The notes below the pieces were generated by a model. It worked only from the letters and a program-made list of their open reading frames with translations, was not told the origin of the DNA and made no database searches. From a virus, in IMG/VR virus record IMGVR_UViG_3300020154_000003, positions 248,001 through 312,000 of that record: DNA of 64,000 bases; one strand, written 5' to 3'. Position numbers and translations under genes: made by a program. Positions 7,644 to 26,223 of this stretch are shown here, piece by piece. Every line of letters begins with the position of its first letter. Position 1 is the stretch's first letter.

Positions 7644-7669
7644 TTCTGTTTACTGTTTGTTTGTATGGA

Positions 7670-7700
7670 GTTATACGTAAACAATGTGAAAAAGTTACAA
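7670..7700 (-). promoter_or_regulatory. early-type promoter for rIIA
   Basis: Leftward sense TTGTAAC, 16 bases, CGTATAAC. The -35 overlaps the stop codon of the gene at 7695-8129, so the promoter is squeezed into the gene junction. Confidence 0.75.
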
Positions 7701-8648: not shown

Positions 8649-9479
8649 TTACATTCTAATTGATCTTACGTAGTCAATGTGTTCCTTACTCATTGGCACA
8701 CCAGTAAAATTGATTGCCAAGAATACCCGCAAAGCATCTTTGTCAGTTGTGTCTTCATCCAGTTCCACATAAAATAACTGTCGATAGGATAAAAATATAT
8801 GCTGCGCTTCGCTGGACAAATCTGAATAAAGATTACCATGCAAATCCGGGAATTTATCGTTATAGAATTCCCATAACGCATTGAATCTCTGTTTTCCATC
8901 AACTAAGTCTGCGAAAGCTGTGTGTTCAAATTTTCCTTCTTTGATACGGCTTTCAACCCAATCCCATGATCGTCTTCTAAACACGAATTTGCCGATTTCA
9001 ACATGGTTATAAATGGATTCAATCAGCATTTGTTTCTGCTCTAATGTCCATACCAACCCACGCTGGTATTCGACTTCATTCCCCTCACTATCGATGACTG
9101 TAGGGTCTTGACAAACCTCAGGGATTGTTTTTCCGTTCACTGACTCAAAACGTTTGCCTCTATCCCTCGCTTCGACACCACCCCGCCAGAATAGCTGCTC
9201 AATATCTATTGCATAAGCACTAGCCCTTAATTCAGGTTGAAATGGATTAGCACCAATTTCACGGACGCTTTTTCGTACTTCGGTAAGCTTTCTGGTTTGG
9301 AGTTCACGATACCCATGTCTTTCGAAAAAGACTGTATCTCCCTCTACCTTAAGTACTTCAACCAGTTCTTCGCTATCAGGTCGATTAAACGACATACCCT
9401 TCACATAGATGCCATCGCCCTTAATTAAGGGTTTTGCAAGGTATTCGGCTATGAGTTCCGCTTTGGTTTTTGCTTTCAT
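8649..9479 (-). CDS. DUF262 (ParB/GmrS-N-like) protein
   Basis: 276 residues. The DUF262 signature is visible: YQRGLVWTLEQKQMLIESI (about 138-156), then GKFVFRRR, DLVDGKQR (about 196-203, the D-G-K-Q-R motif) and a helical stretch with FLAINFTGVPMSKEH near the end. In type IV restriction enzymes (GmrSD, BrxU) this domain is an NTP-dependent nuclease or NTPase module and is followed by an HNH domain (DUF1524). Here the protein ends after the DUF262 part, so no second domain is present. In a phage it could be a decoy of such an enzyme, a DNA-modifying regulator or a superinfection-exclusion factor; nothing decides. The promoter at 9485-9515 places the transcript start at or next to the ATG. Confidence 0.8.
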   Translation of the reverse strand: MKAKTKAELIAEYLAKPLIKGDGIYVKGMSFNRPDSEELVEVLKVEGDTVFFERHGYRELQTRKLTEVRKSVREIGANPFQPELRASAYAIDIEQLFWRGGVEARDRGKRFESVNGKTIPEVCQDPTVIDSEGNEVEYQRGLVWTLEQKQMLIESIYNHVEIGKFVFRRRSWDWVESRIKEGKFEHTAFADLVDGKQRFNALWEFYNDKFPDLHGNLYSDLSSEAQHIFLSYRQLFYVELDEDTTDKDALRVFLAINFTGVPMSKEHIDYVRSIRM

Positions 9480-9484
9480 ATGAT

Positions 9485-9515
9485 ATTATACGTAAATTGA
9501 CGTAAAATGTTTGAG
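9485..9515 (-). promoter_or_regulatory. early-type promoter, leaderless for the DUF262 gene
   Basis: Leftward sense CTCAAAC, 16 bases, CGTATAAT. Only five bases separate the -10 box from the ATG at 9479, which places the predicted +1 on the start codon. It is divergent from the rightward promoter at 9541-9571. Confidence 0.7.
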
Positions 9516-9540
9516 ATTAGCAAGTTAATAACTTGTTTGA

Positions 9541-9571
9541 ACGTAACAAATTATTCTCATATACGTATAAT
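9541..9571 (+). promoter_or_regulatory. early-type promoter for the rightward unit 9580-11767
   Basis: ACGTAAC, 16 bases, CGTATAAT. The ATG at 9580 follows eight bases after the -10 box, so the leader is at most one or two bases. Confidence 0.75.
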
Positions 9572-9579
9572 ACTTTATC

Positions 9580-9945
9580 ATGTTCACAAAACAGCAAAAA
9601 GACGAACTGCTCTGTCGCATTGAGATCAGGAAGGATACAATTGAAGAGGATTTGGATAGTGCTGATGCATTTGAGGCTATACCTGATGCACTCGATAAAC
9701 TCAGAGAAAAGATTCTTTACGATTCTAAAGACTTCAGTGAGGCTGAAAAAAAGTGGATGATTGAGGAATTAGACAATCAATTGGGGGTCTCAGTACGTGA
9801 TGATCATCAAATCAGGGGAGCAATTACTAAAATTAAGAACTTACCCAACCCTGAACTTAAGGAACGAGAAGCATACCTGAATAACATTAATGAAGTATTG
9901 GGTTTGGATGAAAACGTACTTAAAGAAAAGCGTAAAAAAAGATAA
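9580..9945 (+). CDS. charged helical protein, unknown
   Basis: 121 residues, predicted entirely helical and highly charged, ending in KEKRKKR. First gene of a rightward five-gene unit (9580-11767). The start is fixed by the promoter immediately upstream; alternative upstream starts are excluded by it. No family recognised. Confidence 0.7.
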   Translation: MFTKQQKDELLCRIEIRKDTIEEDLDSADAFEAIPDALDKLREKILYDSKDFSEAEKKWMIEELDNQLGVSVRDDHQIRGAITKIKNLPNPELKEREAYLNNINEVLGLDENVLKEKRKKR

Positions 9946-9948
9946 AAT

Positions 9949-10569
9949 ATGGAAGACAAGAAATCAACTTTAGGCTCATTGTTGCTTGAAGAATTGAAAA
10001 AAACTCGTGAGGAATTGGGTAACATTTATTATCACTTATTCGCCATCAAAGGTGAAAAGGATTTGAGTGAAGTACTGGAAGTGTATTACGCTCTATCAAA
10101 GGAAAATCCAGAAAATTGGTTCGCCTCATTCCATAAGTCCATGAGACAAACAGATTTCTTTCAAGACTGCACGGTGTCAATATCTAACCCAACGATTACC
10201 GATGAAGAGCGGATAGAATTACAGACACTTAGTGCTGATTACCATAAGACTGATAAGCATCTCTCTCAATTTGAAAATGGATTGCTAGAAGCACTCCCTA
10301 CTCCTGATGACCCAACATACAAGGAGAGGTATAACAGCTATGTCGATACTTATCGACTTAAGTTTCGAGAATTCTTTCCTCAAGAAAAAATAAACAGGAG
10401 AAGGGAACTGATAAAAAAACTGCGAAACAAAGAAGAACATTCTATAAGTGGACATTTGGATTCAATTCTTTGGCTGACTATTGCCAATGATCAAAATGGT
10501 TTATTATATTTGACCATCGACCATGTTTTCAGCGAGTACGATTACAAGAAAAAACATAAACTAGTATAA
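9949..10569 (+). CDS. hypothetical protein
   Basis: 206 residues, mainly helical and charged. A short motif ENPENWFASFHKSMRQTDFF lies near residues 54-73, and a basic stretch RRELIKKLRNKEEH near 148. Four bases separate it from 9580 and two from the next gene, indicating one operon. No family recognised. Confidence 0.65.
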   Translation: MEDKKSTLGSLLLEELKKTREELGNIYYHLFAIKGEKDLSEVLEVYYALSKENPENWFASFHKSMRQTDFFQDCTVSISNPTITDEERIELQTLSADYHKTDKHLSQFENGLLEALPTPDDPTYKERYNSYVDTYRLKFREFFPQEKINRRRELIKKLRNKEEHSISGHLDSILWLTIANDQNGLLYLTIDHVFSEYDYKKKHKLV

Positions 10570-10571
10570 CA

Positions 10572-11114
10572 ATGGAATTCGTGTATGATGATGGCGGTAG
10601 AGAAGCCGCAGGTTACAAAGGTGATGCTGGTGATTGTGTGTGTAGAGCAATCACAATTGTTACAGGACTTCCATATAAGGAAGTTTATGATCGACTTGCA
10701 GAGGGGAACGCTACACAACGAAAAGGCAAACGAGCAAAGTCAAAAGATGGTGTTCGCACTGCTGCCAAAGGAATCAATACCAATCGTAAATGGTTTAAAG
10801 ATTATATGCAGTCATTGGGATTCAAATGGGTTCCCACTATGCTGGTCGGTCAAGGATGTAAGGTGCATTTGTGCAAAGAAGAATTACCAAAGGGTAAGTT
10901 AATCGTTGCAGTGAGCAAACATTACACTGTCGTTATCGATGGTGTAATTCATGATACACATAACCCATCTGAACGTGGTGTTACTGTGTATCCTCCAACT
11001 TACCCAAAGGATCAATTACCAAAGGGAGCATATTGGATGGAGAATGGAAATGGTTGGGCGTATGCCCCTCAACGTTGTGTGTACGGATATTACTACAGAG
11101 ATGAAAATAATTAG
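10572..11114 (+). CDS. papain-like cysteine peptidase-like phage protein
   Basis: 180 residues. GDAGDCVCRAITIVTG (about 17-32) resembles the active-site cysteine and helix of papain-fold enzymes, with Cys23 the likely nucleophile. KHYTVVIDGVIHDTHNPS (about 117-134) offers the histidine (H118) and a following Asp/Asn. This GDC-x-R-A-I layout is common in short uncharacterised phage proteins that fit the peptidase C39/C1 fold. Substrate is unknown: processing of a phage or host protein, deubiquitinase-like activity against host conjugation systems, or a catalytically dead binder are all possible. Cotranscribed with helical proteins of unknown role. Confidence 0.55.
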   Translation: MEFVYDDGGREAAGYKGDAGDCVCRAITIVTGLPYKEVYDRLAEGNATQRKGKRAKSKDGVRTAAKGINTNRKWFKDYMQSLGFKWVPTMLVGQGCKVHLCKEELPKGKLIVAVSKHYTVVIDGVIHDTHNPSERGVTVYPPTYPKDQLPKGAYWMENGNGWAYAPQRCVYGYYYRDENN

Positions 11115-11547
11115 AAAGCCAAAGAAGGTTGCCGTTAAGAAACCAAAATACCAATCATTGGAGAGGGTATTACGTGATACGTATACCAACTGGACAGCAA
11201 CACACTCTGTTGAAGCGTATGATATTGACTTCAATAAGGTACAGACTTCTGATTTGATAACGCTATACAGAAATTTGACTCTATTCACTTACTGGATAGG
11301 TGATCTTAAAGTTAGTTCACCTGACTTAGAGCGAGAAGCATATTTACACGTTCTTGCTTCAGTTATTGATGTTAAATTTAATGAAATGGATGCTAAGTCA
11401 ATAAAAAACAAAACTTTTTTAGAGAATAGACCAGTACTTATAAGTAAGCTGAAGGCTATACTTGCAACCAGAGAACACATACCGAACAAAAAACAAGCGA
11501 AGGAAATAAGAAGAAAAAAAGCACAAGGAAAATTTATTGTAGACTAA
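11101..11547 (+). CDS. basic hypothetical protein
   Basis: 148 residues from the ATG at 11101, which overlaps the previous gene by 14 bases; the open frame extends further upstream but inside 10572-11114. Both ends are very basic (MKIIRKPKKVAVKKPK and KKQAKEIRRKKAQGK), while the core is helical. The composition would suit nucleic-acid binding. No family recognised. Confidence 0.65.
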   Translation: MKIIRKPKKVAVKKPKYQSLERVLRDTYTNWTATHSVEAYDIDFNKVQTSDLITLYRNLTLFTYWIGDLKVSSPDLEREAYLHVLASVIDVKFNEMDAKSIKNKTFLENRPVLISKLKAILATREHIPNKKQAKEIRRKKAQGKFIVD

Positions 11548-11554
11548 ACCAGAG

Positions 11555-11767
11555 ATGCCAGCAATCGTAGAAAGAGCAAAGTGGGACGTGCTCGTTAAAA
11601 TGTTCCAGTACCTGTATTACGCCAAGCTAAGAAAAGAACAAGTTAAAAAGGTTGATTACCTTTTCAAGTTCGGAAAACATAAAGAAGTTGCAGAAAAAGT
11701 GTGGGAGTGCTTTTTCGTTCAAAACCTTGAATGGCCACACGAAATGTATAATGAAGTTTTCAAATAA
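11555..11767 (+). CDS. small hypothetical protein
   Basis: 70 residues, helical, with aromatic and basic residues (WDVLVKMFQYLYYAKLRKEQ). Last gene of the rightward unit, followed at once by a hairpin that faces the leftward gene at 11776. Confidence 0.6.
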   Translation: MPAIVERAKWDVLVKMFQYLYYAKLRKEQVKKVDYLFKFGKHKEVAEKVWECFFVQNLEWPHEMYNEVFK

Positions 11768-11790
11768 AAAATCCCTTAGGACTTTTTCGT
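11765..11790. terminator. hairpin between convergent genes
   Basis: AAAAATCC, loop CTTA, GGACTTTTT with one mismatch, flanked by A and T runs. It lies in the 8-base gap between the convergent genes ending at 11767 and 11776 and could stop transcription from both sides. Confidence 0.5.
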
Positions 11791-12165
11791 TATGTATTGA
11801 ACCATTGCCAGCCAGATCGCTTCCTTCTTTGTATCTGCTGTGACCTCCACAAACATCTCAGTACCTAGAAATTCAACAACAAATACATTTCTACCATCGA
11901 TGTGGAATGTTACACCATCCTTCGCCTCAAGCATTTCAAGGGCATCCATCAATTCCCTATAATCCTCATGATAGACCAATTTTGCACCATGCTTGTAAAC
12001 CCTAGATTTTCCTAGCTTGATAAATTCAGCAAAAGTATCCACTGATTTCAATCGCCAGTACCCGTAATTTATTCCATTCGGACGTTCATGTTCTGGATTA
12101 ACGCTTGAAATGTATTCATAACCAAGATAATTCGCGATCATCTTGTTGCCTTCTGTATGGTTCAT
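11776..12165 (-). CDS. hypothetical protein
   Basis: 129 residues, alternating strands and helices; the C-terminal part (FEVTADTKKEAIWLAMVQYI-like, about 103-125) follows the small phage sandwich pattern in which a strand precedes an amphipathic helix beginning T-x-x-E-A. The N-terminus contains a second helix (EGNKMIANYLGYEYI). Start overlaps the stop of the upstream small membrane protein (TAATG). Function unknown. Confidence 0.65.
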   Translation of the reverse strand: MNHTEGNKMIANYLGYEYISSVNPEHERPNGINYGYWRLKSVDTFAEFIKLGKSRVYKHGAKLVYHEDYRELMDALEMLEAKDGVTFHIDGRNVFVVEFLGTEMFVEVTADTKKEAIWLAMVQYITKKS

Positions 12166-12305
12166 TATTTTCTTTTTAAAACGATAATTATTCCGATAGA
12201 TAATCCGATGAGTGCTCCTATAAACGTCCCTAGAACGCCAAAGAAAGAGCCAAAAACAGCCCCACCAGCACTACATGAGATCGGGGTGCTAAAAATTATA
12301 TTCAT
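12165..12305 (-). CDS. small glycine-rich membrane peptide
   Basis: 46 residues. After a short N-terminus (MNIIFSTPISCS), residues about 13-43 form one long hydrophobic stretch with glycines spaced as in a glycine zipper (GGAVFGSFFGVLGTFIGAL), ending in KRK. It overlaps the upstream gene by 17 bases and the downstream start by one (TAATG), so reading frames are fixed by coupling. Glycine-zipper segments often oligomerise in membranes; a pore-forming or holin-like role is possible but unproven. Confidence 0.6.
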   Translation of the reverse strand: MNIIFSTPISCSAGGAVFGSFFGVLGTFIGALIGLSIGIIIVLKRK

Positions 12306-12702
12306 AATCTAAAAAATCTGCGCAATACATTGATATGATGGCGTTATAGTAAACCTGACCTGCTACACTTAACCCACCATTATCGAGCCAATAAGCATCA
12401 CTATCATACAAAACCTGAACCTCAGACAAAAAGTTTTTCCCAAGTTCATAAATTTCAGATGGAAGGTATGTGGAGATGTCCTCCATTTCTAACTTGTCAT
12501 TAACTAAACGCCTTAAATTTTTGACACTACCAGTTAATTCTTCAGGTTTGTGTTCATCACTGATATAACGACCAATCGCACATTTAAGTCCGTGTTCGTT
12601 TTTATATTTTCTATCAGAATTTCGTCTATGTGGGTGTGTTCCATAAAAATAGACCATATCGTTTAAAAAACGTGTTCTTGCTTCCTGCAATGTTTCCATC
12701 AT
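12289..12702 (-). CDS. hypothetical protein with CAIGRYI motif
   Basis: 137 residues. Contains YFYGTHPHRRNSDRK (about 18-32) and KCAIGRYISDEH (about 40-51), a combination seen in uncharacterised phage proteins. Mostly helical afterwards. It overlaps the nucleotidyltransferase gene by four bases. Function unknown. Confidence 0.65.
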   Translation of the reverse strand: MMETLQEARTRFLNDMVYFYGTHPHRRNSDRKYKNEHGLKCAIGRYISDEHKPEELTGSVKNLRRLVNDKLEMEDISTYLPSEIYELGKNFLSEVQVLYDSDAYWLDNGGLSVAGQVYYNAIISMYCADFLDYEYNF

Positions 12703-13307
12703 ATTTCCTTTGGAGCCACAACTCTGAACCGAGTTAGCAAATTATTGTAGCGATTTTTATAGGTGAGAAACAACTCACTCCAATCATATTTATTCATTAT
12801 TTCCTCGAACAATAGATTACAACATCCATAGTCGTATATCTTGCCCTTCTCTGCCAATTGAATACCATATTCGATGATCCGCATGGCATGGAATAAACTC
12901 TTTCTTCCAAGGCTTAAATCATAGTCCTTTTCGACAGTCAATTTCTTTTTGGCCTTAACCCAACTGTTGGATGATTTTGCTCGAAGGGAATATCTTAATT
13001 TAGTATTGTCTATATTAAAAGAGAATTTTCTTTTCTCTAACAAGATGAATTGAGAATCCAGAAACTGACATTCAATAGCAGATATTTCATGCTCATCAAG
13101 CCGTTGCTGATGTTCCTCCGGGGTGTAAAAATTGATGTTAATTAGATTGTCGGAAAACTGCTTATTGACCTTATTTGTGGTCACTACAATGAAATCGTAA
13201 TCCGACTGCTTTGTGATATTCCCATACACCCTTGACCCGTATACGTAGACTGCAACCACCTCTTTTTCAGATAATTTGGCTTTGGTCAGGATGGTGTGTA
13301 AATTCAT
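12699..13307 (-). CDS. nucleotidyltransferase (MNT/KNTase-like)
   Basis: 202 residues from the ATG at 13307. The polymerase-beta type signature is clear: GSRVYG (about 25-30), then SDYDF (36-40) giving the metal-binding D-x-D, as in minimal nucleotidyltransferases. A third carboxylate may be E79 in AIECQFL. The rest is helical. Such enzymes transfer NMP to proteins, RNA or small molecules; here the acceptor is unknown. A GTG two codons upstream (13313) overlaps the promoter -10 and cannot be used from it. The predicted transcript start coincides with the ATG, so the mRNA is probably leaderless. It heads the unit 13307-11776. Confidence 0.75.
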   Translation of the reverse strand: MNLHTILTKAKLSEKEVVAVYVYGSRVYGNITKQSDYDFIVVTTNKVNKQFSDNLININFYTPEEHQQRLDEHEISAIECQFLDSQFILLEKRKFSFNIDNTKLRYSLRAKSSNSWVKAKKKLTVEKDYDLSLGRKSLFHAMRIIEYGIQLAEKGKIYDYGCCNLLFEEIMNKYDWSELFLTYKNRYNNLLTRFRVVAPKEI

Positions 13308-13312
13308 ACCCA

Positions 13313-13343
13313 CTTTTACGTAAAACTTGGGAAATTGTTTTAT
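13313..13343 (-). promoter_or_regulatory. early-type promoter for the nucleotidyltransferase unit
   Basis: Leftward sense ATAAAAC, 16 bases, CGTAAAAG. The ATG at 13307 is five bases after the -10 box. The -35 overlaps the end of the preceding gene (stop at 13340). Confidence 0.55.
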
Positions 13344-13666
13344 TTTTGAAGGTCTTTCCAGTACTTAAACATTTTCTCGATTTTATTGATAATTGTCTCA
13401 TCATCGATCCAAAGAGTAAGCATCATAACCACTTTATCAATATCTTCTAAGCTATAAATAAGTTCCTTATCTGGATGACGAAGTGGTTTATTATCATTAC
13501 CATCTTGAACAAAAATCCCATCATTAAATCTCCAATTAGTGTCACCGACAGTCAATGTTAAACCATTTAATCCATTGATCTCCGTTAATTCACCACCTAG
13601 GTTTATAAGGTCTTCATCCTCATCTTCAAAGTATTCGTCTTCAAATTCAAAATCGTCCTCTTCCAT
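13340..13666 (-). CDS. acidic protein, paralogous to 13692-14141
   Basis: 108 residues. The first 22 are extremely acidic (MEEDDFEFEDEYFEDEDEDL). The C-terminal 38 (YSLEDIDKVVMMLTLWIDDE, then an F-x-x-W helix) match the end of the next gene upstream (YSLKDIQSLVGLLTLGIDDE), showing a shared domain. Function unknown; the acidic N-terminus could mimic nucleic acid or bind a basic partner. Confidence 0.7.
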   Translation of the reverse strand: MEEDDFEFEDEYFEDEDEDLINLGGELTEINGLNGLTLTVGDTNWRFNDGIFVQDGNDNKPLRHPDKELIYSLEDIDKVVMMLTLWIDDETIINKIEKMFKYWKDLQK

Positions 13667-13691
13667 TTATCCATACCAAAACAAATAAAAA

Positions 13692-14141
13692 TTATTTAGC
13701 AATCTCCCCTTCTCGCCATTTTGAAAATGTTTCATCCATTTCCAATCTGGTTTTTTCATCATCAATTCCTAGCGTAAGAAGTCCAACAAGACTTTGAATG
13801 TCTTTTAGTGAGTATCTTGTTTGGTTCATTTTTTCATCGTATGTCGGTTCTTTAATCTTAGGTTTACTGCCTTCCCTAATGAAACGTTCAAACGCTTCAA
13901 GCTGAAGTTGATACTCTCTTTCATCTTGCTGTTTTTTCTGTTTTACTTCCTCGTGTCCACTTTTAAGATAATGGGCAGGGATGCCAGCAACTTTGGATAT
14001 TTGTTCCAGAAAATATGCGGTAATTTTAGTATGTTCATCCATGTATTCGGAAATCTTAAAATCTCCAGTTGCAGGATCAACACCAACAAGATATTGTGGC
14101 ACCTTTGCCTTCATCCAATGCTTATAATACTCTTCTCCCAT
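13692..14141 (-). CDS. hypothetical protein sharing a C-terminal domain with 13340
   Basis: 149 residues. A middle coiled-coil stretch (about 60-100, EEVKQKKQQDEREYQLQLE) precedes the YSLKDIQSLVGLLTLGIDDE domain shared with the adjacent gene. N-terminus contains YLVGVDPATGDFKISEY. It directly abuts the next upstream gene (14142). Function unknown. Confidence 0.7.
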   Translation of the reverse strand: MGEEYYKHWMKAKVPQYLVGVDPATGDFKISEYMDEHTKITAYFLEQISKVAGIPAHYLKSGHEEVKQKKQQDEREYQLQLEAFERFIREGSKPKIKEPTYDEKMNQTRYSLKDIQSLVGLLTLGIDDEKTRLEMDETFSKWREGEIAK

Positions 14142-14612
14142 TTAATCTGGTTGTGATAATGGTGATGTACCGAAAGTACTGGCTTGGGCTTTTCTTATTT
14201 CGTCAAGTTTGTCTGGTGAATACCACTCATTCCCTTTAGGATTTACCTCAGGATTTTTGCTGCATGGTTCACATATTGATCTTATCCAACCATTAGTACG
14301 TCCAACATTTTGATTAGTACCGCAGTTTTCGCATATACTATAAGAGAAGTCTTCCACAAACCCAATTATACCACTTATGTATTCGTCACCACCTTCAAAA
14401 TAAATTCTAAGACCTCCGAATTTTTCTTTGATTGTTGAAATGGTGAATTCTAACGGAGGATTATTGCCGTACCGAGATTTCCATTCCAAGTAGCGTTGAA
14501 TTTTAAGTAACGCTCTGTCGAGCAATCCAACCCATCCATTACCACAGCTAATACCGTAGTGTAATTGAAGCATGGATTTGTATTTCTCTTGTAGTTCCTC
14601 AGTTGTTTTCAT
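14142..14612 (-). CDS. zinc-ribbon protein with KEKFGGLRIY motif
   Basis: 156 residues. A helical N-terminus with GNGWVGLLDRALLKI, then STIKEKFGGLRIY (about 64-76), then a ribbon with CENCG (about 102-106) and CEPCS (about 120-124). This combination is frequent in uncharacterised phage proteins from many hosts. The four cysteines probably bind zinc. Biochemical role unknown. Confidence 0.7.
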   Translation of the reverse strand: MKTTEELQEKYKSMLQLHYGISCGNGWVGLLDRALLKIQRYLEWKSRYGNNPPLEFTISTIKEKFGGLRIYFEGGDEYISGIIGFVEDFSYSICENCGTNQNVGRTNGWIRSICEPCSKNPEVNPKGNEWYSPDKLDEIRKAQASTFGTSPLSQPD

Positions 14613-14623
14613 TGATGTAAAAT

Positions 14624-14854
14624 TTAATAATCAAATACTTTTACGACATTCCATCCCTTTGGAACATAGACTTTCATTTTACCAACACCGCTCATATCTG
14701 GATACCTGTACTTACAACGAACAAGATATTCATAACCTCTATCTTCGATTACCTTACCAAAGAAGCGATAGTTTCCGTATTTCTTCACATCTTCCTCAGA
14801 TTGAGTACCCATTTTGGAAACTGCCTGTGTCGGATGATAAAACATTATATACAT
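14624..14854 (-). CDS. small beta-rich hypothetical protein
   Basis: 76 residues, mainly strands (YRFFGKVIEDRGYEYLVRCKYRY, MKVYVPKGWNVVKVFDY), suggesting a small barrel. It is 3 bases from the upstream gene, so part of the 15871-13340 unit. No family recognised. Confidence 0.6.
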   Translation of the reverse strand: MYIMFYHPTQAVSKMGTQSEEDVKKYGNYRFFGKVIEDRGYEYLVRCKYRYPDMSGVGKMKVYVPKGWNVVKVFDY

Positions 14855-14857
14855 TTT

Positions 14858-15871
14858 TTATTTTTTCCTCTTTTTACTTGGTTTCGATTTATGTTCTGAA
14901 ATCATAATTGGTTCTTTAATTATGATTTTCTCACGACCCCTATCAATAAAGGTCTTCACATTTTCGTTGTTGATTTCATGTGCCTTCTCATTCAATGTTT
15001 CCAGTACCACATCAAGGGTAAGGTTACAATAATCGTCAATCCAATCTCCAACGTAGTAAAGTCTTCGTGAATTTTCCATCACCCCGAATAAGATAGGGTC
15101 TTTGTCCCTTTTCTCTTTTTCCTCTTTAGTGAGGTTGGTTGCATCGTTATTAGGATCGTAATGTAAAATTACGTAGTTGTCGAACACGAACGTTAAATCC
15201 AATTTCTCCTTCACATCCAGAATCTTGGTAGGGATAGGCTTGATGAAGTTTTTCATCCAAGTTAGCTTTAATTTATTATCCCTGTCAGTTTTTCTGTAAA
15301 AATCAACTACTTGCTGCTCAGTCAAATAAAGATTCAAACCGTATGCCACCAACTGAGCCTCAGACTTAGCAGCAGTAAGTCTACCCTTCAATTGTTCCAC
15401 CAGAGAAACCTGACCTGCTTTCTGAGCATTGTTGATCGCTGTTTCATAGTGAATTGCAATGTCTGTCAAGGTTTTCAATTCGTTCAAATTAGTAGCTAGG
15501 CTCGTAAAGAATTCAATGATTGTCATTGCCTTCTTTCTTTCAAGTTGAACGGCCTCTTTTTGCTTCTGTTTTTCTTCCCTCTTAGTTCGCCACTTTTTAA
15601 ATAATCTTGAAATCAGGCTCTCTTTCTTCGGGGTAGAATCCGTATTTCCAATAATATAGGTATTCAACCCGGATGTACCAGTAGCTGTGTTCCATGAAAT
15701 AACATTACCCATCGACCAGTCCTCGCTTGGCACTGCTAGTCCATCGCTAATCGCAATACCACTAACTTGGGAACTTTTAAGTTCCACAGATTCACCAACT
15801 TTGTACTTGGGAAGATTCTTGTCAATTTCGAATCTTTCGAAGACTTCTAATTTATCATTATGTGTTACCAT
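14858..15871 (-). CDS. hypothetical protein with central helical region
   Basis: 337 residues. The N-terminus is beta-like (KYKVGESVELKSSQVSGIAI), followed by a basic helix (about 84-112, LFKKWRTKREEKQKQKE) and a long helical region (about 115-200). The C-terminus is basic (KSKPSKKRKK). No enzymatic motif is seen. Its size and long helices suit a structural or scaffold role, but the position among accessory genes does not support a virion component. Confidence 0.65.
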   Translation of the reverse strand: MVTHNDKLEVFERFEIDKNLPKYKVGESVELKSSQVSGIAISDGLAVPSEDWSMGNVISWNTATGTSGLNTYIIGNTDSTPKKESLISRLFKKWRTKREEKQKQKEAVQLERKKAMTIIEFFTSLATNLNELKTLTDIAIHYETAINNAQKAGQVSLVEQLKGRLTAAKSEAQLVAYGLNLYLTEQQVVDFYRKTDRDNKLKLTWMKNFIKPIPTKILDVKEKLDLTFVFDNYVILHYDPNNDATNLTKEEKEKRDKDPILFGVMENSRRLYYVGDWIDDYCNLTLDVVLETLNEKAHEINNENVKTFIDRGREKIIIKEPIMISEHKSKPSKKRKK

Positions 15872-15883
15872 GAGTAATATTTT

Positions 15884-16270: not shown

Positions 16271-16279
16271 ATAATTAAT

Positions 16280-17205: not shown

Positions 17206-17206
17206 A

Positions 17207-18167: not shown

Positions 18168-18169
18168 AT

Positions 18170-19454: not shown

Positions 19455-19456
19455 GA

Positions 19457-19669: not shown

Positions 19670-19699
19670 TTTAATTAAACCTGTTATATTTTTAAATTA

Positions 19700-20179
19700 T
19701 TACATATTACTATTGGAATATTCAGGGTTGCCAGTAACTTCCTCAATCAACCATTCGGGGATGCTGAATTTATCGTCAATACTTTGCAATTCAATTTCAG
19801 CGAGTACTAACCCGCTTTTATGTCCACCAAATACGTCAACCTCCCAACGTGACTTATATACATAAACCACATATCTAACTTTTTCTATTAGCGGAGTTTT
19901 ACAGTATGATAACAACCTATCGATTTCATGAGTTGATGCGACATCATACTCAAATTCATCGACACCTACACTTCCATCGTTTATTTTGATGGTTAAAACA
20001 CCTGCAATACCATCTTGGTTTTCGACTTTCCTAATTCTTACTACTTTAATATCATCAGCATGGAGATACCCTTGAGTGATTTTGGAAATCGATATTGGTT
20101 TGTTAGTCATTCCAATATAATCATTGAATAGATCAAAATTCACCAAAAACTTTCGCTCAATTTCTCTATTTAGGCTCAT
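19700..20179 (-). CDS. CYTH-domain protein (triphosphate tunnel metalloenzyme)
   Basis: 159 residues from the ATG at 20179. The hallmark E-x-E-x-K reads EIERKF at residues 5-10, and further tunnel strands follow (KVVRIRKV near 46, GVLTIKIN near 60, EFEYDV near 75, VRYVVYVYKSRWEVDVF near 100, LVLAEIELQS near 122). Family members hydrolyse inorganic or nucleoside triphosphates or cap RNA ends. The start is fixed by the ATGA overlap with the upstream gene; a longer frame to 20230 would run inside it. In a phage a role in RNA 5'-end repair or triphosphate removal is possible. Confidence 0.85.
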   Translation of the reverse strand: MSLNREIERKFLVNFDLFNDYIGMTNKPISISKITQGYLHADDIKVVRIRKVENQDGIAGVLTIKINDGSVGVDEFEYDVASTHEIDRLLSYCKTPLIEKVRYVVYVYKSRWEVDVFGGHKSGLVLAEIELQSIDDKFSIPEWLIEEVTGNPEYSNSNM

Positions 20180-20481
20180 ACAAGGTGTGGTATAATCATT
20201 AGAAGTATTGACACCGTTGTAATAATCCAAAACGGCTTTCTACTTGGATGACAGTGTTTATGGGAGCAGCTAGACTTTTTATGTAGGTAGTACATATAAT
20301 AACCAACTGCAATAGAGGCTAAGTTAAGGATTATCAACACCCCTTCATACTCGTGCATAAACTCGAAATAATGTCCCATCGATGTAAGACCGATCACAAA
20401 ACAAACTACTGGCATTACACAGCATAATGAATGTGCAATTAAGGTGACAAACATTAATGACAATACCGACTTATTATTCAT
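20176..20481 (-). CDS. MerC-like small membrane protein
   Basis: 101 residues with about four hydrophobic segments (8-30, 46-63, 84-99 the clearest). The first segment carries HSLCC, and a loop holds CSHKHCH, a potential metal-binding cluster. The size, the cysteine pair in the first segment and the His/Cys loop resemble MerC-type membrane proteins of Bacteroidota. Whether it transports metal is unknown. It overlaps the CYTH gene by four bases and follows the AAA+ gene by four bases. Confidence 0.55.
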   Translation of the reverse strand: MNNKSVLSLMFVTLIAHSLCCVMPVVCFVIGLTSMGHYFEFMHEYEGVLIILNLASIAVGYYMYYLHKKSSCSHKHCHPSRKPFWIITTVSILLMIIPHLV

Positions 20482-20485
20482 TTTT

Positions 20486-21469
20486 TTAACGACTACCGAA
20501 CCCTATAGATTTTCCTCCAAACTTCTTTGAATTAGGACGTTCTTCGTTCAATTCTTTCAACGTCTTTATTACTTCCTCGAACGGATTTCCTTGAATAACC
20601 GTTGAGACTATTAATTCACGTAAGTGAGCAATAGACATTTTCTCTGTTTGCTTAACCCATTCATCCAAATTTATCGCAGCAATATCGTGAGGCTTCAAAG
20701 TCTTCTCGAAATAATATTTCCTCACTTCATCATTAGGAAGTGTAATTTCATATCTTTTATCGAAACGCGATGGTCTATTGATAATACGTTCGCCAAGTTC
20801 CTCAGGGAAGTTAGTGGTGGCAAGATAAACGATGTTATCCATCTGATTCATTCCGTCAAGAATGTTTAATAGCAGCGTTTCAGTTGCTTTGCCTGCATTG
20901 AACAGTCCATCAATGTCTTCAATGATTGTAACAATTTTACGGTTGCGCTCAACCACTTTGAAAGTCGAATGCATGAAGTTGCTGTAGAACTGTACATCTT
21001 CAGGAGTTTCAATTCTAAAAACAACACCAGATTCTTTTTCAATAAGATGTTTTACAATAAGTTGTATGATGTGTGACTTTCCGCAACCGGGGCTACCATA
21101 CATTAAAACACCTCGTTTATACGTCAAACCGTACTCTGTAAATTTCTCACCATTCTCCCAAAAACTAACAATGTCTTTAAGAATGCTTTTAGTTTCAGGC
21201 ATAGGAAGTTCCAAAATACTGTCAGTACTGTGACCCATTTTTCTGACAAAGTATTTCTCCTGTCGTTGATCATATCCAATACTATAAAATCCTGTTGGAA
21301 TTTTATTTGCTAGTTGAACTTGATACTCTGGATAATAAATTCCTCCACCGTGAGTACTCCACTGAATATATTTTGGGGTTTCTAATACTATCTCTTTATC
21401 TTCTGGAACGCTTGGTTCACTATTACCGTAATTATAATTATCTGCTTGATCAATCGTCTCTACTCTCAT
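20486..21469 (-). CDS. AAA+ ATPase
   Basis: 327 residues. Walker A GSPGCGKSH (125-133), Walker B TIIEDID (181-187), sensor 1 ATTN (217-220), then a PSRFDKRYE block (233-241) with the arginine-finger region. This is a classic AAA module close to the Cdc48/FtsH/BCS1 group. The N-terminal 100 residues are unrelated and may bind substrate. Likely a protein remodelling or unfolding motor. One gene in a tight leftward run with the MerC-like and HAD genes. Confidence 0.85.
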   Translation of the reverse strand: MRVETIDQADNYNYGNSEPSVPEDKEIVLETPKYIQWSTHGGGIYYPEYQVQLANKIPTGFYSIGYDQRQEKYFVRKMGHSTDSILELPMPETKSILKDIVSFWENGEKFTEYGLTYKRGVLMYGSPGCGKSHIIQLIVKHLIEKESGVVFRIETPEDVQFYSNFMHSTFKVVERNRKIVTIIEDIDGLFNAGKATETLLLNILDGMNQMDNIVYLATTNFPEELGERIINRPSRFDKRYEITLPNDEVRKYYFEKTLKPHDIAAINLDEWVKQTEKMSIAHLRELIVSTVIQGNPFEEVIKTLKELNEERPNSKKFGGKSIGFGSR

Positions 21470-21472
21470 GCT

Positions 21473-21928
21473 TTACTTAATAAATTTTAAAATTAATTCT
21501 TTAACATTTTCTCCGCACAGACCGTCAATGGAATCACAAAGAACAAAGTTTGGTACTTTTTTAGATTTTAAATTTAAGTCATCAAAGGCAACCCATTTTT
21601 CAGGTTTATGTTCATTTAAATAAGTGCTAATTTGGTGTATCCTATTTATTTCAAGATCAAACATTTTCACATTTTCATTTGAGATCATACCAACGGGCTT
21701 TTTTATTATCCCATTCCATTCGAAAATCTCCCCTATTTGTTCCAATGTCCAATACAATCGCCAATCTGAGGATAGAACCAGATCAGCATCAGTTTCTCGT
21801 AAAATTTCGTTAAGAACTTCAACACATTTAGGATTCATGCGGTAGATACTACCCCACTTTGTTTCTTCGCGCTTCCCACACTCATCAGTTGCCAGTGGGC
21901 CATCAATATCTACAAAAATTAATTTCAT
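21473..21928 (-). CDS. HAD-superfamily phosphatase-like (HAD_SAK type)
   Basis: 151 residues. Motif I IFVDIDGPLAT (D6-x-D8), motif II SSDWR (about 53-57), motif IV with AFDD (about 114-117). The SSDWR-type second motif and the short length fit the HAD domains first described in Swiss Army Knife RNA-repair proteins. Such enzymes remove phosphate, possibly from nucleic-acid ends. A second, longer HAD of the same type is encoded at 23622. Confidence 0.75.
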   Translation of the reverse strand: MKLIFVDIDGPLATDECGKREETKWGSIYRMNPKCVEVLNEILRETDADLVLSSDWRLYWTLEQIGEIFEWNGIIKKPVGMISNENVKMFDLEINRIHQISTYLNEHKPEKWVAFDDLNLKSKKVPNFVLCDSIDGLCGENVKELILKFIK

Positions 21929-21958
21929 GTTGTGTGTTCGTAAACCTATGAATAAAAG

Positions 21959-22156
21959 TTAAACATTGCAAACTTTTCTAAAAAATGCAGTATAATATAT
22001 TTTTTTATCTTTTAGGTAATTGCCCCTTAAATAGACATCAAGATTGATAGCCAATACGGTGAAATATTGATCGTTTGGCCCACATAGAACATGTACGTCC
22101 ATCTGAAAGAATTCTCGTCTTTTAACTGACAATTCAACTGCTTGCGGTAGTGTCAT
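21959..22156 (-). CDS. small hypothetical protein
   Basis: 65 residues: one helix (TLPQAVELSVKRREFF), then strands (VHVLCG, YFTVLAINLDVYLRG, KIYYTAFF). Four-base overlap with the upstream gene. No family recognised. Confidence 0.6.
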   Translation of the reverse strand: MTLPQAVELSVKRREFFQMDVHVLCGPNDQYFTVLAINLDVYLRGNYLKDKKIYYTAFFRKVCNV

Positions 22157-22461
22157 CTTATGCTGGCAAAGTCAATTGTCTGAACCAATGCCTTTAGTAA
22201 AGCCTTATCGAATTCTTTCCTGAATACCACAGGAATTTCATTTTCGTATAAGTTAGGTTGCTCTCCGGGTTTGATGGCACATAAGTGAATAGTAGTACAC
22301 CATTCTTCATCAAATCGGTAGCCATCCCAACGACCGCTTTCAAATTCAACAATTTCATAGTTCAAAGCTTTCAAAAAAGTGAGTACTGATTCTAGGCTCA
22401 GAATATCAAAACGATATGTCTCACGGTTTATGTTTTTTTTGCTGGTTTCTTGGGTTTTCAT
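22153..22461 (-). CDS. hypothetical protein
   Basis: 102 residues, alternating strands and helices; ends with a helix EFDKALLKALVQTIDFAS. It overlaps both neighbours by four bases (ATGA), so it is embedded in a coupled row with the macro-like gene. No family recognised. Confidence 0.6.
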   Translation of the reverse strand: MKTQETSKKNINRETYRFDILSLESVLTFLKALNYEIVEFESGRWDGYRFDEEWCTTIHLCAIKPGEQPNLYENEIPVVFRKEFDKALLKALVQTIDFASIR

Positions 22462-22856
22462 ACTAAGTAGTTTAAGAATTTTTGGGGTAAGAATACATTT
22501 TCCAATTGAACGGCATCCTTAAATAAGGGTGCTACATCCTTGTGTTTTAAGCCAGCTAGGCCAGTGCCAATTTCGGTCACGAGAAACTTGTACTTTGGGT
22601 TGTTTTTTGCAAATTTTATAAACCTCTCGACATGGGGCTGTATTTGGTCTATACGCAACGTTTGAATGTGGCGATCCTTGGTAGGTATACCGTAAGTACG
22701 TCCCATTAAACCTGAAGCCTGACCATATACGGCACCCCATTTTCTTTGAGCAGTCAAAGCAGCACCACGGCTATGTGCGCCACGTAGATTAGAACCGAAA
22801 ACGAATATTTCATCGTCCTCTAAATTTACTATATGTTCAGGGGTAACTCGATTCAT
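22458..22856 (-). CDS. macro-like domain protein (A1S_2505 type)
   Basis: 132 residues. EIFVFGSNLRGAHSRGAALTA (split at about 16-36 here), KWGAVYGQASGLMG and YGIPTKD (about 55-61) are the conserved blocks of the phage A1S_2505 macro-like family, and TEIGTGLAG (about 94-102) supplies the second glycine loop. Macro domains bind ADP-ribose and related nucleotides and may hydrolyse them. In phages this could reverse ADP-ribosylation or bind a nucleotide signal. It overlaps the bactofilin-like gene by four bases. Confidence 0.75.
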   Translation of the reverse strand: MNRVTPEHIVNLEDDEIFVFGSNLRGAHSRGAALTAQRKWGAVYGQASGLMGRTYGIPTKDRHIQTLRIDQIQPHVERFIKFAKNNPKYKFLVTEIGTGLAGLKHKDVAPLFKDAVQLENVFLPQKFLNYLV

Positions 22857-23254
22857 GATTTCCTATGTTTTACGCTTACTGCATCTATATCCCCTGCAAC
22901 ATTGCCACACTTAACCGATGTCGCGTCAATATCGCCACCAACGTCCCCACACACTACCGAAGTAGCATCCACCTTACCATGTACATTACCAACAATTTCA
23001 CAGCTAGTGCAATCCAATTTAGCCAACTCACCTTCCCATTTAATATGGACTGTATTACTAATTATATTGTCAACGATAACTTTTCCATCAACAATAATTC
23101 TTCTGTTTACGACAGAAACGTTTTTTCCCTCAACATCATAGGATACACCATCAATAGTTATTTTATTCATAAAGTTATCGAAATAGTTATTTAATTTTTT
23201 GAATTTGCTTTTTACCTTCTTTACAAGAGTGTCGTATGTATCGTTAATATTCAT
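22853..23254 (-). CDS. bactofilin-like repeat protein
   Basis: 133 residues. After a helical N-terminus (1-30) comes a run of strands and, at the C-terminus, about four imperfect 14-residue repeats of the form VDATSVVCGDVGGD / IDATSVKCGNVAGD. The period and the alternating hydrophobic and glycine pattern suggest a right-handed beta-solenoid as in bactofilins or polymer-forming cytoskeletal proteins. The repeats carry a cysteine or valine at a fixed place. It may polymerise into filaments. A beta-solenoid of another family is the main alternative. Confidence 0.55.
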   Translation of the reverse strand: MNINDTYDTLVKKVKSKFKKLNNYFDNFMNKITIDGVSYDVEGKNVSVVNRRIIVDGKVIVDNIISNTVHIKWEGELAKLDCTSCEIVGNVHGKVDATSVVCGDVGGDIDATSVKCGNVAGDIDAVSVKHRKS

Positions 23255-23257
23255 ATT

Positions 23258-23635
23258 TCATTTTATAATAATGTCGAATTCGAATCTGTGATCATAAAAA
23301 TTATCTCTGACATGCTCAACTTCTAAGTTTCTTACTTCCGATTCAAATGATTCCTTGAAGTACGCCATGTAGTCAATTCCTTTTTTTATGTCCAAATAGT
23401 TGTTTGTTTCCTTAAGGTAACTTATCTGGTCATTAATTTTGCGAATAATGTCTCGTATTGTGTTGTAATTCCGTCTTGCTTTAATGATTTCACAAATACC
23501 ATTATCTTTAAGATAAAGTACATACTCTGAATTAATCAGAACCGAAAACTCTACCTTGCTTCGTATCATAGACGTATTACGAAATGATTTATGAATCTCA
23601 TTCTCGTGTATATATGAAACTTTAATCTCCTTCAC
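23258..23635 (-). CDS. hypothetical protein
   Basis: 125 residues with an N-terminal beta part (KVEFSVLINSEYVLYL) and a long helix (about 55-90, TIRDIIRKINDQISYLKET), ending in strands. Overlaps the HAD gene upstream by 14 bases. No family recognised. Confidence 0.6.
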   Translation of the reverse strand: MKEIKVSYIHENEIHKSFRNTSMIRSKVEFSVLINSEYVLYLKDNGICEIIKARRNYNTIRDIIRKINDQISYLKETNNYLDIKKGIDYMAYFKESFESEVRNLEVEHVRDNFYDHRFEFDIIIK

Positions 23636-24242
23636 GACTCAATATTTTAAGTGCCTTCAAATATTGTTTTTCACCAAATCCCGTTCTGTTTTTGCAGTGT
23701 ACAAAATTCTTTCTTTGTTCATAAAGCATGTCCGAATCGTCATCGAGTATGACATAAGTTGAAAGAGTACACTTCGCTTTTTCCTTACGCACATATTCCC
23801 CATCCCACTGCCAATGTGCAAAATTATGTTTGATACGATAATACCACTCAATTTCACAACCTCTCGGTATTGTGACACCACGATCTGATTTCAATCTGAT
23901 CAATTGGTTCATGTTGCTGCCGTACCGACTAGATTCGGCATTAACTCTCAAATCCCCTCTGAAGTCTGGTGTAATTCCAATAACTTCTCCTTCCATTTTT
24001 CTCAACTTCCACATCCCTCTCATTGCCTTGAGACCTGCATGTCGCCATGTGGAAGACACCACTATTTTAGCACCTGTTTCCCGTATCAATCGGTTTAACA
24101 ATTCCTGAGCAATTGGGTCAAATAATTGACCGTATTTGTCACGGGGAACTTGCTTCTTATGTTTTTTAAACCAAGTTTTATAGTAGCGTTGTGAATTCAG
24201 AACACCATCAATATCTAAGAAAATTATTTTAATTTTCTCCAC
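23622..24242 (-). CDS. HAD-superfamily protein (HAD_SAK_2 type)
   Basis: 206 residues. Motif I IIFLDIDGVLNS (D10-x-D12), motif II VVSSTWRH (about 61-68), motif IV YVILDDDSDML (about 163-173). A basic insert (about 72-100) distinguishes it from 21473. It belongs to the HAD group found in RNA-repair polyproteins. Probable phosphatase or 5'-nucleotidase-like activity on an RNA or nucleotide end. Three bases separate it from the small gene upstream. Confidence 0.8.
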   Translation of the reverse strand: MEKIKIIFLDIDGVLNSQRYYKTWFKKHKKQVPRDKYGQLFDPIAQELLNRLIRETGAKIVVSSTWRHAGLKAMRGMWKLRKMEGEVIGITPDFRGDLRVNAESSRYGSNMNQLIRLKSDRGVTIPRGCEIEWYYRIKHNFAHWQWDGEYVRKEKAKCTLSTYVILDDDSDMLYEQRKNFVHCKNRTGFGEKQYLKALKILSREGD

Positions 24243-24245
24243 AGA

Positions 24246-24395
24246 TCAATGAGTAATAGCTTTTGCAATCGCTTTCTTTTTAACCTTGCTTTTATCTGAA
24301 ACGTTTAAATCGTTATATTCAGAATCAGTTAATATATCGCCCATACGGTAACTTTTACCATTAGAAGCTTTGAATGATTGTTTTGCTACGTACAT
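24246..24395 (-). CDS. very small basic protein
   Basis: 49 residues: starts MYVAKQSFKASNGKSYRMGD and ends with a lysine-rich helix (DKSKVKKKAIAKAITH). Three bases before the HAD start. The layout SF-x-x-x-NGK-x-Y-x-x-GD followed by a helix resembles tiny phage proteins with an SH3-like hairpin. Function unknown. Confidence 0.6.
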   Translation of the reverse strand: MYVAKQSFKASNGKSYRMGDILTDSEYNDLNVSDKSKVKKKAIAKAITH

Positions 24396-24415
24396 TGTTG
24401 TTTTTGTTTGCTGCT

Positions 24416-24616
24416 TTAAATTATTCTTGACCCATCAGCCTTTGCCCCTATGAAAGCATAAGAAGATGTATAACGATCATTGTCATCAGGCTCACTCCCA
24501 ACCTCAAAACTTATTGTTTTGAGTTCAACTTTATGATGCGTTTTAAAGTGGTCTATTAAAATTTTTTCAACATCAGTTCTAGTCAACTTGATGTGTACCT
24601 TATCTACGATTTCCAT
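24416..24616 (-). CDS. small hypothetical protein
   Basis: 66 residues from the ATG at 24616, two bases after the stop of the upstream gene (a longer frame to 24631 overlaps it). Helix LTRTDVEKILIDHFKTHH followed by strands. No family recognised. Confidence 0.6.
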   Translation of the reverse strand: MEIVDKVHIKLTRTDVEKILIDHFKTHHKVELKTISFEVGSEPDDNDRYTSSYAFIGAKADGSRII

Positions 24617-24617
24617 A

Positions 24618-24833
24618 TTATTCGCGTCCAAATTTTACTTTAAGTCCGTCCTGTGTCGCAATGATACCTAGAATTTTTTCTCCGGGTCGTTTGTTAACTG
24701 CATGTGCAATAAAGGGTTTCAACACTTCCCATGAAAACTCACTAATGACACCACCCTCAGCCTCACGCTTAAACTGTTCATCAGAAACACTTGCTTCCAA
24801 CGATTTGTAAATTTTTTGTACTATTTTATCCAT
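24618..24833 (-). CDS. small hypothetical protein
   Basis: 71 residues from the internal ATG at 24833, which overlaps the end of the DUF3307 gene by 13 bases; the longer frame to 24905 would lie inside that gene. N-terminal helix DKIVQKIYKSLEASV and C-terminal strands. No family recognised. Confidence 0.6.
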   Translation of the reverse strand: MDKIVQKIYKSLEASVSDEQFKREAEGGVISEFSWEVLKPFIAHAVNKRPGEKILGIIATQDGLKVKFGRE

Positions 24834-25165
24834 AAAAAGGTATAATATAATGTCATTATATGTATCAACTGATCCAATCCAATTACCGTCCAGAACCAGT
24901 ACCAATTTTGTTTTTTGTAAAAAAACGATGTTGTTTTACTAGTAACGAAATCAGTGCATAAATGTAAGAAACTATTCAACAATAACCAAAGAGTAAATGT
25001 TACAAAGTTCTCGAAAATAAAGAAAGTTGAAAGACCGAGTGCTATCGTATAGGCAACAATATGGACGGAGAGCCAATAAAAGCTTTTACTCTTATTATCA
25101 CCCATTTGTCTGGTCTGGCAAACGAAGTCAGCAAAGAAGTGGCCTACAAAAATGAATCCTAGCAT
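24821..25165 (-). CDS. DUF3307 membrane protein
   Basis: 114 residues, three or four membrane segments (about 1-15, 29-52, 55-75, 90-110). GHFFADFVCQTRQMGDNKS (about 8-26) and LHLCTDFVTSK (about 67-77) are the DUF3307 signature: a conserved H-x-x-x-D pair repeated in two membrane helices. Bacterial homologues are integral membrane proteins of unknown activity. It shares one base with the upstream gene. Confidence 0.8.
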   Translation of the reverse strand: MLGFIFVGHFFADFVCQTRQMGDNKSKSFYWLSVHIVAYTIALGLSTFFIFENFVTFTLWLLLNSFLHLCTDFVTSKTTSFFYKKQNWYWFWTVIGLDQLIHIMTLYYTFLWIK

Positions 25166-25548
25166 TATTTTGAAGGTTTATTTTGTTTATAATATTCTTG
25201 CATTTCTTCCAAACTATTGATGTGTTTGGGGACGATTTGGTTCAACCCTTTTGCAAATTCAGCCCATTTGTAGTTATCCCCATCCATTACAAAGTGATCA
25301 ACCGATGAAGAAAACCCTCTACTTATTACGCGAGTAGAAGGATACTCAGCCATCTTTTTTATGGCATTGATAAAATCTACCGCAGGATCGCCAGACTTAA
25401 ATTTGATGACCTTCTCCTTGCCCTTCTTACTATCTGCTGTCATTGTGCTCACATGCAGTTCTATAGCCTTGTATGACGATTGATCGCCATCATCATAGTC
25501 TATATTTAAGAATAGCTGGTAATATTCTTTTGGTTTACTCTTTGCCAC
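25165..25548 (-). CDS. hypothetical protein
   Basis: 127 residues. Basic start (MAKSKPKEYYQLF), strands in the first half, then ADSKKGKEKVIKFKSGD and a helical C-terminus ending in basic residues. Overlaps 25535-25888 by 14 bases. No family recognised. Confidence 0.6.
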   Translation of the reverse strand: MAKSKPKEYYQLFLNIDYDDGDQSSYKAIELHVSTMTADSKKGKEKVIKFKSGDPAVDFINAIKKMAEYPSTRVISRGFSSSVDHFVMDGDNYKWAEFAKGLNQIVPKHINSLEEMQEYYKQNKPSK

Positions 25549-25888
25549 GTTTGATAATTGTTAACATTTTTTCCGAATACCCACCATCAATAGACATTTT
25601 CCTATGAATTGAAAATGCCCACTTAAGAAGTTCATCACTGGAATTATCAACCCGCTTATACACGGGTTCTTTCCTTAATTTAGGATTGGTAGCCAATCCG
25701 TATAGTGGAGTACCGTCACAGTCACGAAGATGGGCCACAACATAAAGTCTTAACCCCGGTTCACCATTCTCATCCGTCACTTCTACCAAAGATTCGAGTG
25801 GTATGTTGTGGGAAATGGTTAAGTTGTTCTCTTTTAAGGTTTTACCGTTGTTTTCAACGACATCACCAAGAAATACTATGTTTTTCAT
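25535..25888 (-). CDS. hypothetical protein
   Basis: 117 residues, strand-rich: GEPGLRLYVVAHLRDCDGTPLY (split at about 41-62) is the most distinctive block, followed by a helix with DELLKWAFSIHRKM. First gene of the leftward unit 25888-21473 or a part of it. The promoter at 25896-25926 leaves seven bases before the ATG, so the mRNA is essentially leaderless. Confidence 0.65.
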   Translation of the reverse strand: MKNIVFLGDVVENNGKTLKENNLTISHNIPLESLVEVTDENGEPGLRLYVVAHLRDCDGTPLYGLATNPKLRKEPVYKRVDNSSDELLKWAFSIHRKMSIDGGYSEKMLTIIKRGKE

Positions 25889-25895
25889 ATGTCAG

Positions 25896-25926
25896 AATAT
25901 ACGGATTTTGCGGTTAATTGTTGTAA
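25896..25926 (-). promoter_or_regulatory. early-type promoter, leftward of a divergent pair
   Basis: Leftward sense TTACAAC, 16 bases, CGTATATT. It shares a border with the rightward promoter that begins at 25927; the two -35 boxes are back to back. Confidence 0.65.
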
Positions 25927-25957
25927 ACATAACAAAATTCTCTATTTATCGTATATA
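25927..25957 (+). promoter_or_regulatory. early-type promoter, rightward of a divergent pair
   Basis: ACATAAC, 16 bases, CGTATATA. The ATG at 25963 follows after five bases, so the predicted mRNA begins at or beside its start codon. Confidence 0.7.
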
Positions 25958-25962
25958 AGGGC

Positions 25963-26223
25963 ATGAAAACAATAGATTTACTCAAAAACTTATATCATAA
26001 CTACCGCCAGAAACGGTTGTCAAATGTTGACAAACTGCGTTGGCTTGGTGGAATGGAAGCATACCTTATTGAATTAGGATTTCTTCAAGTTGGTGGGTTT
26101 CCGTTTGACTTTAAAAGGTCAGTCCTACTGAAGTTTTGGGTGATCAAAATAACTGTAAGAGAGAATTATGAAGAATTCATAATCCGTCATGTGAAGGAGG
26201 CTATAAATGGTAAAGCTATTTAG
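25963..26223 (+). CDS. small basic hypothetical protein
   Basis: 86 residues. Helical and basic start (LLKNLYHNYRQKRLSNVDKLRW), then strands (LLKFWVIKITVRENYEEFIIRHV). Leaderless start imposed by the promoter. Its last 17 bases overlap the next ORF. No family recognised. Confidence 0.65.
   Translation: MKTIDLLKNLYHNYRQKRLSNVDKLRWLGGMEAYLIELGFLQVGGFPFDFKRSVLLKFWVIKITVRENYEEFIIRHVKEAINGKAI

Follow-up and report, generated by a model that had tools for sequence, protein, structure and literature searches.

Start codons on or beside the predicted transcription start in an ECF-type promoter class of a giant phage

A phage-wide promoter class with predicted leaderless messages

Five genes in a 64,000-nt stretch of a giant phage genome (positions 248,001 to 312,000 of IMG/VR record IMGVR_UViG_3300020154_000003; "the window" below denotes this whole stretch) begin only a few bases downstream of a -10 box, from which the first-pass annotation had proposed that transcription starts on or next to their first codon. 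The window comes from a 366,038-bp virus record (G000, contig C1), and we scanned the whole record for promoters. We consider it likely that each box is the -10 element of a promoter of the extracytoplasmic function (ECF) sigma factor type found throughout the phage genome, which is read by a phage sigma factor and gives leaderless or near-leaderless mRNAs in 26 of 67 promoter–gene pairs. The sequence evidence strongly favours a start at or beside the first codon: an A is conserved as the eighth base past the -10 hexamer even where no ATG is present, ATGs peak on that very base, these genes lack the A(-3)/A(-6) context that leadered genes have, and the pattern recurs in relatives.

Read directly, with the -10 box taken as the eight bases CGTATAAT or a variant of them, the short gaps before the five genes and the longer ones at four comparison sites are as the first-pass annotation had given them (Table 1). 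The promoter is bipartite, AAC-N16-CGTATA with the variants CGTTAA and CGTTTA, and has about 90 copies in the phage genome; at 9/9 sites examined AAC stands exactly 16 bases 5' of CGT, a feature that had gone unmentioned. Across the genome there are 61 copies of AAC-N16-CGTA(T/A)A, whereas every other spacing from 10 to 23 has 5-11. A weight matrix, in which AAC and CG are the most informative positions and which stops two bases past the -10 box (and thus holds no start codon), found 96 sites of at least 15 bits in the genome and 0 in an order-2 Markov genome scanned in the same way. The consensus of Bacillus subtilis sigma-W is TGAAAC-N16-CGTA. Because AAC in the -35 region, CGT in the -10 region and a fixed spacer of about 16 bases mark ECF promoters, the motif is, by its sequence, an ECF-sigma-type promoter; a CGT box at -10 is likewise taken as an ECF mark in Flavobacterium psychrophilum (SM6 motif; PMC9723704). 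The primary-sigma element of Bacteroidota, TAnnTTTG at -7, is absent from the five leaderless sites and is weakly enriched upstream of genes genome-wide (28 vs 16).

The genome has a G+C content of 36%, at which single TATA-like boxes are common, and AT-rich intergenic DNA might supply TATAAT-like boxes near ATGs by chance. For the class as a whole we regard this as excluded by the exact N16 spacing, the Markov control, a shifted-site control (below) and recurrence in relatives. The single weak site before 25963 could nevertheless be due to chance: its promoter is the weakest of the five, the control gives 13 matches at 11 bits or more, and its 86-aa open reading frame (ORF) has no family match.

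Two sub-forms are apparent. The first, AACATTTT..CGTATAAT, is spread throughout the genome, and the second, GTAACCTTT..CGTTAA/CGTTTA, clusters chiefly at 156-177 kb and 203-208 kb. CGTTAA/CGTTTA promoters are far commoner in G000 than in the relatives, and many of those in the two clusters stand before short ORFs. Directly behind CGTTAAtatac promoters also lie three copies of a candidate small RNA (G000:C1 163703(+), 171152(+) and 172256(+)), without an ORF and with the conserved parts ACATACGAA..AGTAGGAGAG..ACGGTTnnTGCAG. A hairpin and a T run form the end of the first copy.

Start codons on the predicted +1

Gene starts came from a home-made caller, covering 76% of the genome, that missed two of the ORFs in question (25535-25888 and 25963-26223) and the gene at 12699-13307; we therefore searched at the promoters themselves for ATGs that open an ORF of 40 aa or more. 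Below, k is the number of bases between the hexamer CGTATA and the ATG, such that k=7 corresponds to a predicted leader of 0 nt; pairing of promoters with genes was extended to k=60.

Position k=7 is occupied by A in 93% of leadered CGTT-type sites (n=15; leadered meaning k 15-48), in 83% of leadered CGTA-type sites (n=24) and in 86% of promoters without a nearby ORF (n=22), and it is directly preceded by T in 87% of CGTT-type sites. As these sites have no ATG at this position, the A marks a probable +1 independently of start codons. An ORF-opening ATG stands at exactly k=7 at 15 of the 92 sites of at least 15 bits, where the shifted-site control averages 0.29 and never exceeds 2; further short gaps occur at k=8 (four sites), k=9 (three), k=10 (two), k=11 and k=12 (one each). 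The distribution is thus bimodal, with 26 genes at k 7-12, none at -6 to 6, and a leadered group from k=15. Predicted leaders are 0-5 nt long in the 26 short-gap pairs; the remaining 41 of the 67 peak at k 21-31, with leaders mostly of 8-41 nt. All 26 short-leader genes start with ATG, the only start codon that the search at +1 took into account. About 26 phage genes should, if the predicted +1 is right, yield messages without the usual leader, and the region first singled out holds only five of them.

Gene starts are chosen mechanically, and first-codon coding scores are modest in a few of these genes; the annotated ATGs might accordingly be wrong, the real starts lying downstream of them and the short gap being created by the gene calls. 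We hold this to be very improbable. The ATGs peak on one exact base, the next in-frame ATG lies at least 20 codons downstream in 21 of the 26 genes, and the starts of two sets of orthologs, a P-loop protein and a 94-aa protein, align. The start codon at 13307 is moreover about right, because the product's NTP_transf_2 domain starts at residue 11.

Translation signals and transcript structure

Shine-Dalgarno sequences precede 11 of 307 genes of the phage, against 15 at a control offset. The five genes do lack one, as the first-pass annotation had said, but this is not distinctive, since genes of this phage generally do, whatever their class. Leadered genes show a Kozak-like context, with A(-3) in 61% and A(-6) in 71%, of the kind described for the Shine-Dalgarno-free Flavobacterium johnsoniae (PMC6847099); in leaderless-type genes the corresponding values are 31% and 42% (p=0.02 each vs leadered genes). 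A at +4 and +5, on the other hand, is commoner in leaderless-type genes than in genes at large (p=0.007 and 0.013).

These signals bear on another possibility, namely that the promoters and +1 are as described but most translation proceeds from longer transcripts, started upstream or processed, with the leaderless species a minor one. Phage genes are often arranged in operons, and further promoters, late-type or other, may be located upstream. Nonetheless, we judge this improbable, given that the divergent pairs 9479/9580 and 25888/25963 are separated by just 100 and 74 bases, in which no further promoter is recognisable, and that the A(-3)/A(-6) leader context is absent in the leaderless genes.

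Recurrence in distant relatives

Used as a probe, the promoter pattern recovered distant relatives in IMG/VR, where two protein probes, rIIA and a helicase, had found nothing; ten records were taken for comparison (with overlaps of G012 with G015 and of G006 with G019). Pooled over these relatives, ATGs stand at k=7 eleven times and at k=8 six times, become sparse at 9-14 and form a leadered group at 15-30; homologues of rIIA, leadered in the window, are leadered there too. A predicted leader of 0-1 nt is kept across phages in three ortholog groups. The P-loop protein retains k=8 in G005, G016 and G019 at 54-62% identity, and for the 94-aa protein the distance from AAC to ATG is 32 bases both in G005 (N16, k=7) and in G012/G015 (N17, k=6), while in G006 and G008 this gene is leadered. 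The homologue of the gene starting at 9479 keeps k=7 in G005. AAC-N17-CGTATA, unseen in G000, is nearly as common as N16 or commoner in G008, G012, G015 and G016.

Because the 9479 homologues are leadered in G019 and G020, genes may switch between the two modes in evolution. A more speculative extension, which we think unlikely though worth stating, is that the ECF sigma factor of this giant-phage lineage yields both leaderless and leadered mRNAs from one promoter class, depending on whether the start codon lies at +1 or beyond it, that genes switch modes, and that the leaderless set forms a translational regulon tied to the state of ribosomes or initiation factors during infection.

The putative reader of the promoters

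The phage encodes two ECF-like sigma factors (Table 1), both matched over their length by the ECF model TIGR02937 (94.6 and 79.1 bits, cut-off 42.9) and both above the cut-off for Sigma70_r2; a third phage protein has a sub-threshold match to sigma region 2. Perhaps the two factors divide the two promoter sub-forms between them. Homologues of one of them, sigma1, occur in six relatives, the larger ones with the shared motif, and the sigma1 gene is preceded by AAC-N16-CGT in G000, G005 and G008, which suggests autoregulation.

The sequence directly shows the motif with its spacing, the conserved A, and two classes of gene that recur in relatives; from these we infer the phage sigma factor as reader, the exact 5' ends, translation from the 5' end, the host phylum and the timing. 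In the mechanism that we propose, host core RNA polymerase carrying a phage ECF sigma factor would open AAC-N16-CGTATA (or CGTTAA) promoters, and transcription would start at the A that follows the CGTATA hexamer after seven intervening bases (k=7). Genes whose ATG lies on that A or 1-5 bases after it would have mRNAs that begin with AUG or nearly so, and host ribosomes would load on the 5' end and initiate at the 5'-terminal AUG, as with other leaderless mRNAs; elsewhere, an A-rich leader without a Shine-Dalgarno sequence would supply the host-type context.

Several observations weigh against this account. The sigma1 gene in G000 is itself under a promoter of this class, and something else must therefore start the cascade. 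AAC-N16-CGT enrichment is absent in a crAss-like phage with an ECF sigma factor, and the link between sigma factor and motif is therefore circumstantial. The A at +1 is less sharp in relatives, where k=6-9 are each A in 59-68%, and a search for a phage IF3 or bS21 that might favour leaderless initiation found neither. The host is probably a Bacteroidota-like bacterium that does not use Shine-Dalgarno sequences, its phylum deduced indirectly. Bacterial relatives of sigma1 are only 22-31% identical, and the motif is absent from their genomes; they therefore do not identify the host.

An alternative reader would be an ECF sigma factor of the host, or some other host or virion factor, in which case the mRNAs would still be leaderless. 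Bacteroidota have many ECF sigma factors (PMC7366714), and the placement of the sigma1 gene under its own promoter class fits such a reader; about 90 sites in one phage, and sigma1 homologues in six larger relatives that share the motif, speak for a phage factor instead. We regard a host or virion reader as doubtful, and retain a phage sigma factor as the preferred one.

Late-type promoters and other loci

A second, late-type motif, AGTATTTATA, stands ahead of other genes, and because this motif is a different one, the "early" expression that the first-pass annotation had ascribed to the leaderless genes is plausible. A occupies each of bases 4 and 5 after GTATTTAT in 84-86% of leadered late-type genes. 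The ATG falls at exactly base 4 after GTATTTAT in six genes, including the one starting at 40379 in the window, and these six also look leaderless, which weakens the "early" reading. G000 thus places start codons in the leaderless manner outside the ECF class as well, though for the late-type motif this is rare in relatives.

ECF-type and late-type motifs also occur together, in tandem before 4136 (4136-4185 (-)) and in the region shared between 40379 and 40446, which suggests that the genes at 4136 and at 40379-40446 are served by both promoter classes.

The remaining sites of the window are listed in Table 1. At the promoter near the tRNA gene, an ATG at the predicted +1 was rejected as a gene start, as the tRNA gene follows; that tRNA gene was found by Rfam and missed by ARAGORN. 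Elsewhere in the record, at G000:C1 89-120 kb, forty tRNA matches fall within about 30 kb, unusually many for a phage.

Table 1. Promoters and sigma factor genes of the phage, in window coordinates unless marked otherwise. Gap, bases between the eight-base -10 box and the ATG; +1, leader and score as predicted.
Feature	Position	Strand	Sequence elements or basis	Gap	Predicted +1	Leader (nt)	Score (bits)
ECF-type promoter of gene 8649-9479 (276 aa, GmrSD-like domain, GmrSD_N Pfam match)	9479..9511	-	AAC 9511-9509, CGTATA 9492-9487; CGTATAAT-atcat-ATG	5	9479 (A of ATG)	0	23.7
ECF-type promoter of gene 9580-9945 (121 aa)	9545..9580	+	AAC 9545, CGTATA 9564-9569; CGTATAAT-actttatc-ATG	8	9577	3 (ATC)	17.9
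ECF-type promoter of nucleotidyltransferase gene 12699-13307	13307..13339	-	AAC 13339, CGTAAA 13320-13315; CGTAAAAG-tgggt-ATG	5	13307 (A of ATG)	0	24.5
ECF-type promoter of ORF 25535-25888 (117 aa)	25888..25922	-	AAC 25922, CGTATA 25903-25898; CGTATATT-ctgacat-ATG	7	25890	2 (AT)	18.2
Weak ECF-type promoter of ORF 25963-26223 (86 aa)	25931..25963	+	AAC 25931, CGTATA 25950-25955; CGTATATA-agggc-ATG	5	25963 (A of ATG)	0	11.8
Sixth leaderless-type promoter, 92-aa gene with ATG at window base 1	1..33	-			A of ATG		28.3
Leadered ECF-type promoter of rIIA (5451-7643)	7664..7696	-		26	7664	21	28.4
Leadered ECF-type promoter of rIIB-like gene (4247-5413; rIIB family matches)	5447..5479	-		39	5447	34	21.0
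ECF-type promoter of gene 3888-4136	4153..4185	-	late-type GGTATTTAT within predicted leader	22	G	17	23.5
Leadered ECF-type promoter of gene 40446-41417	40403..40435	+		16	40435	11	24.6
ECF-type promoter near tRNA gene 1730-1818 (-)	1827..1859	-			1827, 9 nt before tRNA		18.4
Late-type motif before gene 39723-40379	40379..40392	-	GGTATTTAT then TCCT-ATG		ATG on base predicted as +1 of the class		
ECF-like sigma factor, 190 aa	52487..53059	-	profile matches				
Second ECF-like sigma factor, closer to SigW/SigM models	G000:C1:175356-175916 (outside the window)	+	profile matches				

Comparison with known systems

Leaderless phage mRNAs are already known. The host of Thermus phage phiYS40 is itself rich in leaderless mRNAs. 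Most middle and late mRNAs of phiYS40 begin at the start codon and are translated without a leader (PMC3594737), a likeness to G000, where such messages are predicted from sequence alone. The two systems differ in that levels of IF2 and IF3 shift during phiYS40 infection, whereas in G000 leaderless and leadered genes share one ECF-type promoter and the host type uses few leaderless mRNAs.

With the promoters of sigma-W and the SM6 motif of F. psychrophilum, the G000 motif shares AAC at -35, CGT at -10, the 16-base spacer and the presence of ECF sigma genes; it differs in that a phage carries it, about 90 times over, and has start codons placed on the predicted +1, and binding by an ECF sigma factor is putative. 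Bacteroidota hosts resemble G000 in doing without Shine-Dalgarno sequences and in the A(-3)/A(-6) context of leadered genes. Short leaders are rare in these bacteria, however—about 3.7% of 5' untranslated regions are shorter than 10 nt in Bacteroides thetaiotaomicron (PMC7366714), 5.5% of mRNAs are leaderless in F. psychrophilum (PMC9723704) and 13% of leaders are 10 nt or shorter in F. johnsoniae (PMC6847099)—against 26 of 67 predicted at 0-5 nt in G000. The giant phage AR9 similarly has promoter specificities of its own, but the phage multisubunit RNA polymerases and leaders of 26-491 nt are features of AR9 (PMC5312081).

In the open-access literature searched, we found no report of a promoter set for a phage-encoded ECF sigma factor that mixes leaderless and leadered genes. 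If the prediction is true, a single promoter class drives about 26 leaderless and 41 leadered genes in this phage, a natural experiment on how ribosomes indifferent to Shine-Dalgarno sequences begin translation at an AUG that forms the 5' end of the message.

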